Shown here: positions 10,095 through 14,117 of the stretch, in pieces
Layout: each line of letters starts with the position of its first letter
Position numbering within the stretch: position 1 is the stretch's first letter
Source of the DNA: Paracoccaceae bacterium
GTDB taxonomy: Bacteria > Pseudomonadota > Alphaproteobacteria > Rhodobacterales > Rhodobacteraceae
DNA length: 14,117 bases
NCBI GenBank assembly: GCA_007119835.1
Contig: SKOX01000034.1
Location: 1-14,117 of the forward strand
Direction: 5' to 3'
Notes under the pieces: generated by a model
What the model was told of the DNA's origin: nothing
The model's input: the letters and a program-made list of their open reading frames with translations, nothing else
Databases searched by the model: none
Translations under genes and position numbers: made by a program

Positions 10095-10907
10095 TCACAT
10101 CCCGCCCCAGTACGGACGAGCGTCATAGTAGCTGTGGAGCCGCGCCTCGTAGCCGCGGTCGATGGGCTTCGTGGCGTCGTATTCCGGACTGCCCTTGACC
10201 TTTTCCCGGCTGACATCGACGAGCACCTTGCGCTCGGCCCAACTCACATCGCTTGCCCAGTCCGGAGCGATCAGCACCAGCCTGCCCGGCCACCAGTTCC
10301 GCGTGTCGACGAGCAGGTAGCGCGTCTTCCAGCTTCCGGCCTCGACGACGAGATCCTCGATGTGGCCGACATCGCCATCCGTCGCCTGGACGTAATACCC
10401 GGTCACCTCGTTCGCGCTGCGCAGGTGAGGGTCGCCCTCCCGGTTCTCCGCGGCAGCCGTCCCGGGTGGCCGCGGGGCCGCAGGATCCGCCTCGCCCTGC
10501 AGCGGGACGGGCGTGGCGACAGGGGGCACGGCACCCGCGGCGCCTGCCGCCGGCGTGTAGTAGGCGGGCATCCCGTGGGCGCCGCCCCAGTAGGGCGCCC
10601 AGCCGTAATGGCCGTAGAGATCCGCCTCGACCTGGCGCGACACGGGCCTGTCGGCGTCGAGCGGCGGGCTGTTCTCCACGCCCTCCCGGGTGAGGTCGAC
10701 GGGGAATGCGCGTCTCTCCGGATCGCCGTCGCCGAAGGCGGTCGGGGGCAGCAGGACCTTCCGGCCGGGCAGCCAGGCACCGGTGTCGATCACCGCCCAG
10801 CGCACGTCCCATGCCCGGTCGTCGATCAGGAAGTCGCTCACGGCCCCGATGCCGCCGTCGGTCGCCTGGACGGAATAGCCGATGAGGTCCGAGATCCTCC
10901 ACAACAT
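10095..10907 (-). CDS. Tandem PRC-barrel domain protein
   Basis: This 270-residue soluble protein consists of two homologous copies (about 3-109 and 162-269). Each begins with a variant of GYxVQATDGxxG, continues with (V/L)(I/V)DTxxWxPGRxVLxxP, then a VDxxRExV strand, and ends in a conserved PYWGG. This is the PRC-barrel pattern, a small beta-barrel found in photosynthetic reaction-centre H subunits, RimM and many stress-related proteins of Alphaproteobacteria. The linker (110-161) is rich in Pro and Ala. No signal peptide or membrane segment is seen. The start at 10907 has AGGGAG eight bases upstream and begins directly with the first barrel; the frame extends to 10937 but without such a site. 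It is separated by 136 bases from the upstream iron-sulfur operon and probably has its own promoter, which I could not identify. The molecular function is unknown; a structural or stress role is inferred from the family. Confidence 0.85.
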   Translation of the reverse strand: MLWRISDLIGYSVQATDGGIGAVSDFLIDDRAWDVRWAVIDTGAWLPGRKVLLPPTAFGDGDPERRAFPVDLTREGVENSPPLDADRPVSRQVEADLYGHYGWAPYWGGAHGMPAYYTPAAGAAGAVPPVATPVPLQGEADPAAPRPPGTAAAENREGDPHLRSANEVTGYYVQATDGDVGHIEDLVVEAGSWKTRYLLVDTRNWWPGRLVLIAPDWASDVSWAERKVLVDVSREKVKGSPEYDATKPIDRGYEARLHSYYDARPYWGGM

Positions 10908-11018
10908 GACGCATCTCCCTTCGAATGCCGCATCCACACCCTACGCGCGGCGGGCCCCGTGGGTTCGAGCCGAAGCGGCCGCAATCGCCGCGGGAGCCGG
11001 CGTCGCCACGCCCGGGGA

Positions 11019-11043: not shown

Positions 11044-12291
11044 TCAGCGTCCGCCGGCAGTCTCGGCGACGTTGCCCAGGCGGCCGGCTTCGCGGGCGTG
11101 GAAATCGCGGTCGCTTTCGCCCTCCCGCGGTCCGCGGGCGAGCGCGCGGGCGAGGTCGAAGAAGCCCTTGCCCGGCAGGCCCTCCCGCCCCCGGCCGACG
11201 GCGCGGGCGGCGATGAAGGGGCGGCCGGCGGCGGCGTCCTCGCGCATCGTCGTCTCCAGGGCGCGCGTGACCCGGCTCACGGAGCCGGGGAGCCAGAGCC
11301 CGAGCGCGCGGGCGAGGCTGCCATAGCTGACCGGCACCTTGTCGGCGGGCAAAGCTTCGAGATGGGCGCGCACACGGGCAGCAAGATCCCGTTCCGTGTC
11401 GGCGGCGGCTTCGGCCAGGCGCGGCGGCGGGATCTCCCGGGCAGCGCCGCCCGCATCGATCTCCGCCGCCCAGGCCCGGGTCGCGCTGCGCACCACGATC
11501 CGCGTCTTGCCGGCGTCGGCGCCTTCGCCGACCTCCGTCACGCCGACGACCTCGCCGGTCGCGAACGCCTCGCGAAGCGCCTGCGGCGTCAGCCCCAGAC
11601 GCGGTGCGAGCTGGTCGGGATCGACGACGACCTGCCCGTCCTCCCAGGCGATCATGTCCGGCGGCAGCGGACGGTGCAGGACCGGCGACGGCCCGTTCTC
11701 CCGGGCATAGTAGGGCGCGCTGCCGGCCGCGTGGTCGGTGACGTCGACGATGCCCGCGATCTGCGGCAGGGCCGCGCGCAGCATCCGCTCCACGCCCTGC
11801 CGCAGCGTGGCCGAGGAGGCGGCGCAGCCCTGGCACCCGCCCGACATGCGCAGATAGACATTGCCGTCTCCGACCCGCTCGACCGCGATGTGGCCGCCAT
11901 GGGCGGCGACCGCGGGATTCACCTGACGCTCGAGCAGCTCCTCGACGGCCTGGCGCAGGGCGGCGTCGGGATCGCCTGCCTCCCGCGCGTCGCCGCCCGC
12001 CCCGAGCGGCGCGGAGGTCTCGTCCAGCACCTGGCGGATCGCGGCGGCGATCGCGGGCTTCAGCACCGACCAGTCGGCCGCCGCCTCCTTCCGCACCCAG
12101 ATCGTCGCGTCGGCGACCTCGATCCGGCCGACCCCCTCGATGCCGAACAGCGCGCGGGCCAGCGGCGCCTCGTCCGTCGCCTCGAGCCGCGCCGACCGGC
12201 CGGCCTGGACCGGCATGTCCAGAACGAAGCCCATGACGTCGGCTTCGCGGGCGGAGGCCTGCGCCCGGATGCGGCGCGGCAGTTCAGACAT
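11044..12291 (-). CDS. Nfu/NifU-type Fe-S scaffold protein with DUF6522-like and unassigned C-terminal domains
   Basis: This 415-residue protein is more than twice the usual length of an alphaproteobacterial Nfu protein. Residues about 20-92 match the Nfu N-terminal domain (FVLDMPVQAGRSARLEATDE, ARALFGIEGVGRIEVADATI). Residues about 112-188 are the NifU C-terminal scaffold with HGGHIAVERV and the cluster-binding CxxC at C153/C156 in GGCQGCAAS. Residues about 208-288 resemble DUF6522 (DGQVVVDPDQLAPRLGLTP, then a beta-rich half). The last domain (about 300-402) has VSYGSLARALGL, a RPFIAARAV core and GLPGKGFFDLA; I cannot assign it. The ATG at 12291 overlaps the upstream Mrp gene by eight bases and has GGAG seven bases before it. 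It probably receives or transfers iron-sulfur clusters with the adjacent Mrp ATPase in the cytoplasm. The two added domains may provide target binding or regulation, which is inference. Confidence 0.85.
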   Translation of the reverse strand: MSELPRRIRAQASAREADVMGFVLDMPVQAGRSARLEATDEAPLARALFGIEGVGRIEVADATIWVRKEAAADWSVLKPAIAAAIRQVLDETSAPLGAGGDAREAGDPDAALRQAVEELLERQVNPAVAAHGGHIAVERVGDGNVYLRMSGGCQGCAASSATLRQGVERMLRAALPQIAGIVDVTDHAAGSAPYYARENGPSPVLHRPLPPDMIAWEDGQVVVDPDQLAPRLGLTPQALREAFATGEVVGVTEVGEGADAGKTRIVVRSATRAWAAEIDAGGAAREIPPPRLAEAAADTERDLAARVRAHLEALPADKVPVSYGSLARALGLWLPGSVSRVTRALETTMREDAAAGRPFIAARAVGRGREGLPGKGFFDLARALARGPREGESDRDFHAREAGRLGNVAETAGGR

Positions 12292-13450
12292 CCTCCATCT
12301 CCGTGCTCTGCATCGCGCGCAGGACCTTGAACGTGTAGATGCCGGTGCTGTGGCCGTCGCTGAAGTCCATGCCGAGGGCATAGTTGCCGACGCTCCAGAT
12401 CCGGGTGATCCGGAGGTCGAGCGGCACGGACGCCGGGTCGAGCAGCCGGCGGCCGGTTATTTCCTCGCGGCATTGCGCGCAGGAGCAGGCAAGCCGCAGA
12501 TCGCGGTCGGCGAGGGTCTGGTCGTGGCCGTCGGCCCACCGCAGGCGCAGGCCGCTCCCGCCGTGATCGAGACCGACCAGCAGGTCGGGCGGCCCGTCGC
12601 CGCCTGCCGGTGCCGGAGCGGGCCTGCCGGTGCCGTCGGCGAGCGTCCAGGCGAAGGGCGTGGCGATGCCCGGCGCCGCACTGCGGCCGTGCGCCAGCGT
12701 CGCCGCGATCTGGCGATAGGCGTGGGCGGCCGGGCTGTCGGGCGCGGCCTTGACCAGCGGCAAGCCGTCGTCGCCGCAATCGACCACCGCCGGATCGAGC
12801 GGCACCTTGCCCAGGAAGGGCACGTCCAGCTCGCGCGCGATCTTCGCCCCGCCGCCGTCATGGAAGATGTGCGTGACCGTCCCGCAGGAAGGGCAGGTGA
12901 AGCCGCTCATGTTCTCGACGATGCCCAGGATCGGCACGTTGACCTGTTCCATCATCCGCAGCCCGCGCCGCGCGATCTTCAGGCTGACGTCCTGGGGCGT
13001 GCTGACGACCACGGCGCCCTCGAGCGGAAACGCCTGCGCCATCGTCAGCTGGATATCGCCCGTTCCCGGCGGCAGGTCGAGCAGGAGGACGTCCAGTGCG
13101 CCCCACTCCACCTGCCCGACGAACATCTGCAGGTATTTCGTGACCATCGGACCGCGGAGGATCGCGGGCTTGTCGTCGTCGGTCAGCATGGCCATCGACA
13201 TGACCTTGACGCCATGCGCCTCGGCCGGGATCACCTTGCCATCGGGCGACATCGTGGGCTTGTCGGCCGCAATCCCCAGCATTCCGGGGATGGAGGGGCC
13301 ATAGATGTCGGCATCGACGACACCGACGGCGAGCGCCGCCTCGGCCATGGCCACGGCGACGTTGGCCGTCACGGTCGACTTCCCCACGCCGCCCTTGCCG
13401 CTGCCGATCGCGATCAGCCTGGGAGCGGCATTCGTGTCATTGGCAGGCAT
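12284..13450 (-). CDS. mrp: Mrp/NBP35 (ApbC) family Fe-S carrier ATPase with C-terminal DUF971 domain
   Basis: This 388-residue P-loop ATPase belongs to the Mrp/ApbC/NBP35 group that carries and delivers iron-sulfur clusters. It has the deviant Walker A GKGGVGKST (18-26), DADIYGPSIPGMLG (47-59), LLLDLPPGTGD (122-132), STPQD (150-154) and the cluster-binding CxxC at C186/C189 in FTCPSCG. The N-terminal DUF59 domain of many relatives is missing, as Walker A begins at residue 18. Residues about 292-378 form a DUF971 domain (LRLRWADGHDQ, RLACSCAQCREE with C322, C324 and C327, IWSVGNYALGMDFSDGHSTGIYTF), a fold also found at the N-terminus of gamma-butyrobetaine hydroxylase. AAGGAG six bases before the ATG at 13450 fixes the start. 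The gene overlaps MarR by 14 bases and Nfu by 8, indicating one tightly coupled operon. Confidence 0.92.
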   Translation of the reverse strand: MPANDTNAAPRLIAIGSGKGGVGKSTVTANVAVAMAEAALAVGVVDADIYGPSIPGMLGIAADKPTMSPDGKVIPAEAHGVKVMSMAMLTDDDKPAILRGPMVTKYLQMFVGQVEWGALDVLLLDLPPGTGDIQLTMAQAFPLEGAVVVSTPQDVSLKIARRGLRMMEQVNVPILGIVENMSGFTCPSCGTVTHIFHDGGGAKIARELDVPFLGKVPLDPAVVDCGDDGLPLVKAAPDSPAAHAYRQIAATLAHGRSAAPGIATPFAWTLADGTGRPAPAPAGGDGPPDLLVGLDHGGSGLRLRWADGHDQTLADRDLRLACSCAQCREEITGRRLLDPASVPLDLRITRIWSVGNYALGMDFSDGHSTGIYTFKVLRAMQSTEMEDV

Positions 13451-14036
13451 GGTCTTCTCCTTCGGTTCCAATGGCGCTCGCGGGTCCGAAACTCGCGCAC
13501 AGCCTCTCGATGTCATCGGCGGACAGTTCGGCCGCCATGCACGCGCAATGGCCGCTCTCGCCGGCCGGGGTGAAATGGCTGCAGTCGCGGCAGGTGCCGA
13601 AAGCCGGCACCGCCCTGAGGCCCGCGAAGGCGGACGCCAGCCGCGACAGCGTTGCGAGGAACCGGTCGCGCTCGCCAGCCTCGAGGCCGTTGATCACCCC
13701 GATCACGTCGCGAAGCGGATCGTGCTCGAGCAGGGCGCGGCCGGTCTCCGTCAGGTCGAAGCGCACGCTGCGCCGATCCAGGGTTGAGCGCCGCCGGGCG
13801 ACGAGGCCGCGGCTCTCCAGGCTCTTGACGATCTGCGAGGCGGTCCCCCGGGTCGTCGCCTGGAAGTTCGCGAAGGCCGACGGGGTGCGGGTGCTGCCAT
13901 TGGCGCGCGCGAAGAAGCGCAGACAGGTCCATTGCGCTGCCGTCAGCTTCGAACGCCCATCCTCGATGCGGGCGGCGCGGCCGATGTGGATGAGCAGTTC
14001 GGCAATGCGGTCTGGCGTGTCGGACCGGGCTTCCAT
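13437..14036 (-). CDS. MarR family regulator with C-terminal cysteine cluster
   Basis: This 199-residue protein has a MarR winged-helix core (about 8-140): LTAAQWTCLRFFARANGSTRTPS, recognition helix region TTRGTASQIVKSLESRGLV and the wing RRRSTLDRRSVRFDLTETGRALL. Past the usual end of the domain comes a cysteine-rich tail: C149-x2-C152-x11-C164-x-C166-x13-C180, with H154 and H163 nearby, which could bind an iron-sulfur cluster or zinc. The gene overlaps the Mrp ATPase gene by 14 bases and heads the operon, so I infer that it represses its own operon and may sense cluster status, iron or oxidants. The ATG at 14036 gives the expected N-terminus, but no clear Shine-Dalgarno sequence precedes it, so a leaderless or weakly translated start is possible. 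A similar cysteine tail occurs on other MarR proteins; its ligand is not known to me. Confidence 0.85.
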   Translation of the reverse strand: MEARSDTPDRIAELLIHIGRAARIEDGRSKLTAAQWTCLRFFARANGSTRTPSAFANFQATTRGTASQIVKSLESRGLVARRRSTLDRRSVRFDLTETGRALLEHDPLRDVIGVINGLEAGERDRFLATLSRLASAFAGLRAVPAFGTCRDCSHFTPAGESGHCACMAAELSADDIERLCASFGPASAIGTEGEDHACQ

Positions 14037-14117
14037 GGCCGGATTGGTAGCGGATCGAAATCAATAGGGCAAGCGATGCTGCTGCGGCCCAGCCGACCAT
14101 GTTCCAGGCCTCGCCGA
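14037..14117 (-). promoter_or_regulatory. Promoter region of the MarR-Mrp-Nfu operon with candidate operator
   Basis: This edge region is less GC-rich than its surroundings near 14043-14068. It contains ATTGGT (14043-14048) and ATCAAT (14060-14065), an inverted repeat with one mismatch and an 11-base gap, of the size of a MarR operator. On the minus strand TTGCCC and TACCAA, 17 bases apart, could be weak -35 and -10 boxes overlapping it. Possible plus-strand starts at 14076 and 14099 run off the window, so a divergent gene cannot be judged. Confidence 0.3.

Follow-up and report, generated by a model that had tools for sequence, protein, structure and literature searches.

Gene organisation of the locus

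The DNA stretch analysed here (the window) comprises the 14,117 nucleotides at positions 1 to 14,117 of contig SKOX01000034.1 from a Paracoccaceae bacterium (assembly GCA_007119835.1). It carries a three-gene locus, marR-mrp-nfu, which codes for a MarR-family regulator with a C-terminal cysteine tail and for two iron-sulfur (Fe-S) carrier proteins. The locus has the following features:

14067..14072, reverse strand: -35-like hexamer TTGCCC; the family consensus is TTGTCA (alignment of 53 upstream regions)
14042..14065, reverse strand: operator ATTGATTTCGATCCGCTACCAATC, an imperfect palindrome in the promoter spacer (matrix score 27.6)
14044..14049, reverse strand: -10-like hexamer TACCAA, 17 bp from the -35-like hexamer and 7 bases before the ATG (upstream alignment)
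13437..14036, reverse strand: marR, winged-helix regulator of the MarR family with 199 residues, first gene of the operon (open reading frame, Pfam and fold matches)
13485..13601, reverse strand: cysteine tail, codons 146-184 of marR, a possible HiPIP-like Fe-S domain
12284..13450, reverse strand: mrp, Mrp/NBP35 P-loop ATPase (PF10609) fused at its C-terminus to GBBH-like_N/DUF971 (PF06155)
11044..12291, reverse strand: nfu, 415 residues with Nfu_N, NifU, DUF6522 (PF20132) and an unnamed C-terminal region

The gene overlaps reported in an earlier note on this DNA were confirmed from the open reading frame coordinates. marR and mrp share 14 bases (13437-13450, with the mrp ATG at 13450), while mrp and nfu share 8 (nfu start at 12291, mrp end at 12284). 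The three genes are probably transcribed as one unit.

The earlier note had also named 14037-14070 as the DNA for a binding test of the regulator. This region indeed holds the palindromic operator, and a conserved promoter and operator, which the note did not describe, occupy 14042-14072 directly upstream of marR. For comparison, named genomes were scanned with a 28-row alignment, yielding 73 loci. The Rhodobacteraceae-type loci number 57 (L033-L089, with the near copies L041, L042 and L047 counted as three), and 52 of these relatives have an operator-type element beside marR. Their upstream block consists of TTGtCA-17 bp-TAYYAA enclosing TTTCG-N3-CG-N-TA and, in most cases, stops 6-7 bases short of the ATG; the window has TTGCCC-17-TACCAA in this place. 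Upstream regions could be aligned at the site for 53 of 58 loci (the 57 and the window), and 49 of these 53 have TTG at the -35 position. A consensus promoter scan called neither of the two hexamers. Since the -10-like element lies so close to the start codon in the window and in most relatives, a leaderless marR transcript is suggested.

Both carrier genes look accessory, because another Mrp (54% identity to the window Mrp) is encoded on a different contig of the same genome and a whole-length match to the Nfu protein is rare. The Nfu query was matched at 1e-20 in 121 of 149 genomes of the order, whole-length in only nine; the remaining genomes match the Nfu part. The fusion of Nfu with DUF6522 and a further C-terminal region, seen with Pfam, was absent from the earlier note. 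Seven of the nine genomes have a Cys-tail MarR in front, so that the trio was found in 7 of the 149 genomes, including that of the window. In genome G117 the whole-length Nfu is present with no regulator gene immediately ahead; the contig of G124 breaks off within mrp. The literature search found no paper on DUF6522. The DNA-binding domain of O6-methylguanine methyltransferase was matched, below threshold (E 0.076), by the C-terminal region of Nfu from a Defluviimonas relative. On the same strand after nfu (10095-10937), the window carries a gene with two PRC-barrel stretches that is weakly similar to the photosynthetic PuhA; the recurrent neighbours listed for the trio include no such gene.

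MarR core and cysteine tail

Membership of the MarR family is supported by Pfam matches above the cut-off for both MarR_2 and MarR and by a fold search in which residues 1-142 match MarR proteins. The regulator falls outside the named MarR equivalogs of NCBIfam (HpaR, OhrR, MprA, FabT and others), with a best score of 31 bits against cut-offs of 121-250 for the nine listed families. The Rrf2 domain PF02082, found in IscR, NsrR and RirA, was not matched at E 0.001. Residues 1-148 contain C38 as the only cysteine and therefore lack an N-terminal cysteine pair of the ChlR type. Elsewhere in the window genome, on contig C252, a remote MarR paralogue is followed, about 0.3 kb downstream, by a HiPIP gene.

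The tail reads C149-x2-C152-x-H154-x9-C164-x-C166-x13-C180, with the five cysteines exactly where the earlier note placed them. They and H154 are identical in 121 of 121 sequences (the query and 120 listed of 1834 matches), a set picked by whole-protein similarity that includes, as a 99% identical match, the window's own protein. A wider alignment keeps C149, C152, C164 and C180 in 54 of 54 rows. The distance between C164 and C180 is 15 residues in 113 of 114 tails, a count that covers only tails fitting the search pattern (14-17 allowed) and includes near copies.

Across the Rhodobacteraceae loci, C-x2-C, C-x-C and the last cysteine are kept in 57 of 57. The five-cysteine motif of the earlier note holds in all of these loci; outside the family four cysteines remain and C166 is absent from the loci examined. 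C166 occurs in all 57 Rhodobacteraceae loci, in six of six loci of the group L210-L215 (counted apart, as at least three genomes of L212-L215 also appear under L033-L089 numbers) and in none of the 49 loci that make up the remaining three sets. As a mark of linkage to Mrp, C166 was ruled out, since it is present with or without mrp. The four-cysteine tail was found in 14 of 15 Bradyrhizobium-type loci (including L105, for which no tail was read, and leaving L104, cut by a contig end, outside the set counts), in 19 of 20 contexts read class-wide and in 13 of 14 loci of a short-tail branch.

One alternative is that the tail is purely structural, aiding dimerisation or folding, and that the MarR pocket senses a small ligand, such as a compound damaging to Fe-S enzymes. 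Small-molecule binding is common among MarR proteins, and the core of this one matches MarR structures over residues 1-142. However, outside residues 20-96 the only invariant columns of the 54-row alignment are F146, G147 and the four tail cysteines. In addition, mrp, nfu and the sigma gene each recur beside marR more often than any catabolic or efflux gene. The largest other neighbour cluster is a broad family of ABC-type ATPases (22 loci within six genes), followed by the own neighbours of the short-tail branch; of the two clustering runs, one was confounded by shadow reading frames in GC-rich DNA and the other used a simple gene caller. We therefore regard a purely structural tail as improbable.

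A structural comparison of the tail model gave HiPIP-like chains as the sole matches, with weak Z. Homology to HiPIP by sequence was unsupported: the tail has no Pfam match at E 5, PF01355 included, and hhalign gave P values of 0.03-0.06 with a probability of 1-2%, compared with P values of 0.57 for zf-CHCC and 0.28 for FdxA. Against the sequences of solved structures, tail profile A4 had no match at E 10 and profile A5 had four unconvincing ones.

The pattern C-x2-C...C...C suits zinc as well, and the raw Foldseek list of the tail also holds YfgJ, titled zinc-bound, and BIR domains. Hence, the tail might be a zinc site or thiol switch, in which oxidants or electrophiles oxidise the four cysteines, zinc leaves and the affinity for DNA changes. 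We consider this less probable than a labile cluster, at about one chance in four, although part of the neighbourhood evidence given below also favours it.

Gene neighbourhoods and mobile copies

The pairing of the regulator with Mrp and Nfu, on which the earlier note depended, is conserved among relatives. In the Rhodobacteraceae set an Mrp match is in place at 49 of the 57 loci (L034 has a remnant only), and both Mrp and Nfu are present at 46, with two more (L053, L063) cut by the contig end before nfu. In a 110-row tree the trio label requires 6 changes, compared to a shuffled mean of 28.4, although kinship alone favours such clustering; the tree leaves out L104, L105, L193, L208 and identical proteins, and the change count sets aside 24 ungrouped rows. 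In L176-L178 the neighbours of marR are stand-alone genes for Nfu, DUF6522 or the C-terminal region of Nfu.

At eight of the 57 loci the five-cysteine MarR stands with neither mrp nor nfu. A private loop, in which the tail is loaded by the very Mrp and Nfu it controls, is therefore not required, and direct transfer of a cluster from these proteins to the tail is possible but unnecessary. Together with a sigma partner that is commoner across the class, these loci indicate that the regulator has further targets besides Mrp and Nfu. A divergent RpoH-like sigma gene occurs at 32 of 53 Rhodobacteraceae loci, where other flanks vary, and at 14 of 15 Bradyrhizobium-type loci, several of which have fdxA directly downstream and none of which has Mrp. 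Class-wide, 46 of 289 genomes gave a match at 1e-8, with tailless MarR proteins counted as well. Of the 45 matching genomes other than the window's, the 20 best-scoring (with G349 skipped) had their gene context read; 14 of the 19 contexts with at least 900 bp upstream have a divergent RpoH-like gene, and none has Mrp. Three tested RpoH-like proteins from Rhodobacteraceae fall below the curated RpoH cut-offs, while one from Bradyrhizobium passes. Bradyrhizobium erythrophlei GAS478 carries six Cys-tail MarR-family loci (L095-L099, L105), several of them beside fdxA or an RpoH-like gene.

The prevalence of the sigma partner over Mrp outside the Rhodobacteraceae would also fit the zinc or thiol view, with a general response to oxidative or protein damage in which Fe-S carriers are downstream help. 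The same applies to the short-tail branch (14 loci, L196-L209), which keeps the cysteines with no recognised Fe-S neighbour and no RpoH partner. This branch carries the same operator type; near it stands a MOSC-type gene in seven loci (one member Pfam-tested) or an unnamed protein of 249 residues, whose cluster spans 15 loci, including L184 and L187.

Two operator copies, 44-46 bp apart, are present at 28 of 32 loci with the divergent RpoH-like gene compared to 6 of 21 without it. In the window the contig ends 81 bp upstream of marR, so that a divergent gene may lie beyond it, but these 81 bp show no second operator. On other contigs, the window genome encodes two RpoH-like sigma factors and a more distant third one. 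A broad genome-wide regulon was unsupported. The exact operator pattern was searched in 20 genomes (15 with and five without a MarR match) with the reversed pattern as control. It gave 1-7 matches per genome, and the control was as frequent or more so in 14 of the 20 (e.g. 5 operator vs 7 control matches in G034, 2 vs 6 in G037). Real matches exceeded the control in six, including the window genome (2 vs 0) and G090 (7 vs 2); the two matches of the window genome are the marR operator and one GC-rich site.

Two extended copies show which genes adjoin additional operators. Plasmid pOA238_160 of Octadecabacter arcticus (L110) carries fdxA, sdhB, an unnamed gene for 112 residues, aconitase, marR-mrp-nfu and a sigma factor. 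Additional operators are found ahead of the sigma gene and in the interval from the unnamed gene to aconitase. Locus L073 of Antarctobacter heliothermus has fdxA, sdhB, the unnamed gene, lipoyl synthase, aconitase, the trio and the sigma gene; here the additional operators stand ahead of the sigma gene and in the gap separating the unnamed gene from lipA, with none found directly before aconitase. Apart from the unnamed gene, the nameable genes beside these extra operators code for Fe-S proteins and a sigma factor, whereas the sites before marR itself score low in the Octadecabacter and L073 copies (13.0 and 14.7).

The Antarctic Polaromonas plasmid pE10SP1 combines Fe-S assembly genes (sufBCD, cysteine desulfurase, sufU, BolA, Grx4 and NifU-type genes) with mrp, nfu, lipA, aconitase and two Cys-tail MarRs. 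It has no operator-type site scoring 14 or more; a looser pattern found one exact site between a MarR and aconitase and two poorer sites elsewhere. Upstream of its suf genes (L229:1500-1660) lies a candidate IscR type 1 site, judged by resemblance to the consensus. The Fe-S assembly genes of pE10SP1 were described as the first to be reported from a plasmid in a paper whose main text does not mention MarR (PMC6015842). Likewise, the available text of a review of cold plasmids notes the aconitase and succinate dehydrogenase of pOA238_160 without mentioning MarR (PMC4224046).

Roseibaca ekhonensis shares a trio-bearing region of about 13.8 kb, at 99.95-99.96% identity, with Antarctobacter heliothermus as well as with Roseisalinus antarcticus (L041/L042/L047), which points to recent transfer across genera. 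The Antarctobacter and Roseisalinus copies are 97.5% identical over 17 kb. All three species come from Ekho Lake. Such mobility, with some copies plasmid-borne and one set nearly identical across genera, would also be expected if the operon merely hitch-hiked on plasmids and its regulator were unrelated to Fe-S status. However, the trio stays intact in many genera while most flanks change, operators are conserved, and other branches of the family adjoin Nfu, DUF6522 or FdxA or share a plasmid with LipA. Passenger status thus appears very improbable.

The strongest indirect argument comes from plasmids of Defluviimonas and Maritalea, where an Rrf2 gene takes the place of marR and overlaps mrp by 4 bases. 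DUF2249 genes are near both operons, and in Maritalea nirK lies about 2.7 kb away. The two Rrf2 proteins give matches to the RirA and NsrR models that stay below the cut-offs, and the best solved relative of the Defluviimonas protein is NsrR. The swap suggests that the regulator's position is that of a sensor of Fe-S status or nitric oxide.

A candidate Fe-S repair switch

Of the systems compared, ArnR of Corynebacterium likewise joins a MarR/ArsR-like winged helix to a C-terminal domain that contains conserved cysteines. It is reported to bind [4Fe-4S], and cysteine substitutions abolish cluster and DNA binding (PMC12343034). The likeness is one of description: ArnR has three conserved cysteines instead of four or five and controls nar and hmp genes, whereas the window MarR heads Fe-S carrier genes. 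For the cyanobacterial ChlR, also of the MarR family, an oxygen-sensitive [4Fe-4S] cluster was proposed (PMC4500134). ChlR (135 residues in Synechocystis) is an activator with proposed N-terminal ligands, while the window MarR has its cysteines in a separate C-terminal tail and an operator position that suggests repression. IscR exerts Fe-S dependent feedback on Fe-S genes (PMC8593673). Although Rrf2 regulators of the IscR/NsrR/RirA type can occupy the same position before mrp-nfu, they belong to a different protein family. Our literature search, to which most subscription journals were closed, found no paper on this regulator.

Taken together, the results suggest, short of proof, that the tail carries an Fe-S cluster reporting cluster damage to the cell. 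We favour, with a probability of roughly 0.58, a reading of marR as a local, autoregulated and horizontally moving Fe-S repair switch with a labile cluster in its tail. The tail would form a small HiPIP-like domain with the cluster on C149, C152, C164 and C180, and C166 and H154 may lie near the site. With the cluster intact, the MarR dimer would sit on the operator and block RNA polymerase, as the location between the two hexamers suggests. Loss of the cluster through oxidants, nitric oxide, iron shortage or metals, a trigger to which the partner genes, the Rrf2 swap and the model of the tail point, would release the repressor, so that Mrp and Nfu are made and clusters re-delivered. In relatives with more targets, release would extend to an RpoH-like sigma factor, FdxA, SdhB, lipoyl synthase or an extra aconitase. 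Once cluster supply is back, the repressor would be re-armed. The module probably moves between species, several times on plasmids, as a self-contained response to Fe-S damage.

The interpretation in the earlier note is partly supported. In its favour are the Fe-S and sigma genes beside extra operators, the NsrR/RirA-type Rrf2 swap and, with its weak Z, the HiPIP-like tail model. A broader proposal, to which we give slightly less than even odds, is that a HiPIP-like [4Fe-4S] domain on a MarR repressor defines an undescribed regulator family. It would command mobile and self-contained Fe-S emergency kits that unite carriers (Mrp, Nfu), spare client enzymes (SdhB, LipA, aconitase, FdxA) and an RpoH-like sigma factor of their own under one operator type and are exchanged on plasmids.

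With an exact operator (14042-14065) and four mutable cysteines, the idea is directly testable. Even with zinc in the tail, the operon would remain unusual as an Fe-S carrier unit controlled by oxidants. If the favoured reading is true, Fe-S homeostasis gains a further regulator lineage outside Rrf2, one that travels with repair genes and often with its own sigma factor. It would also become clear why, in some marine bacteria, plasmids or islands encode Mrp, Nfu, LipA, SdhB and aconitase a second time.
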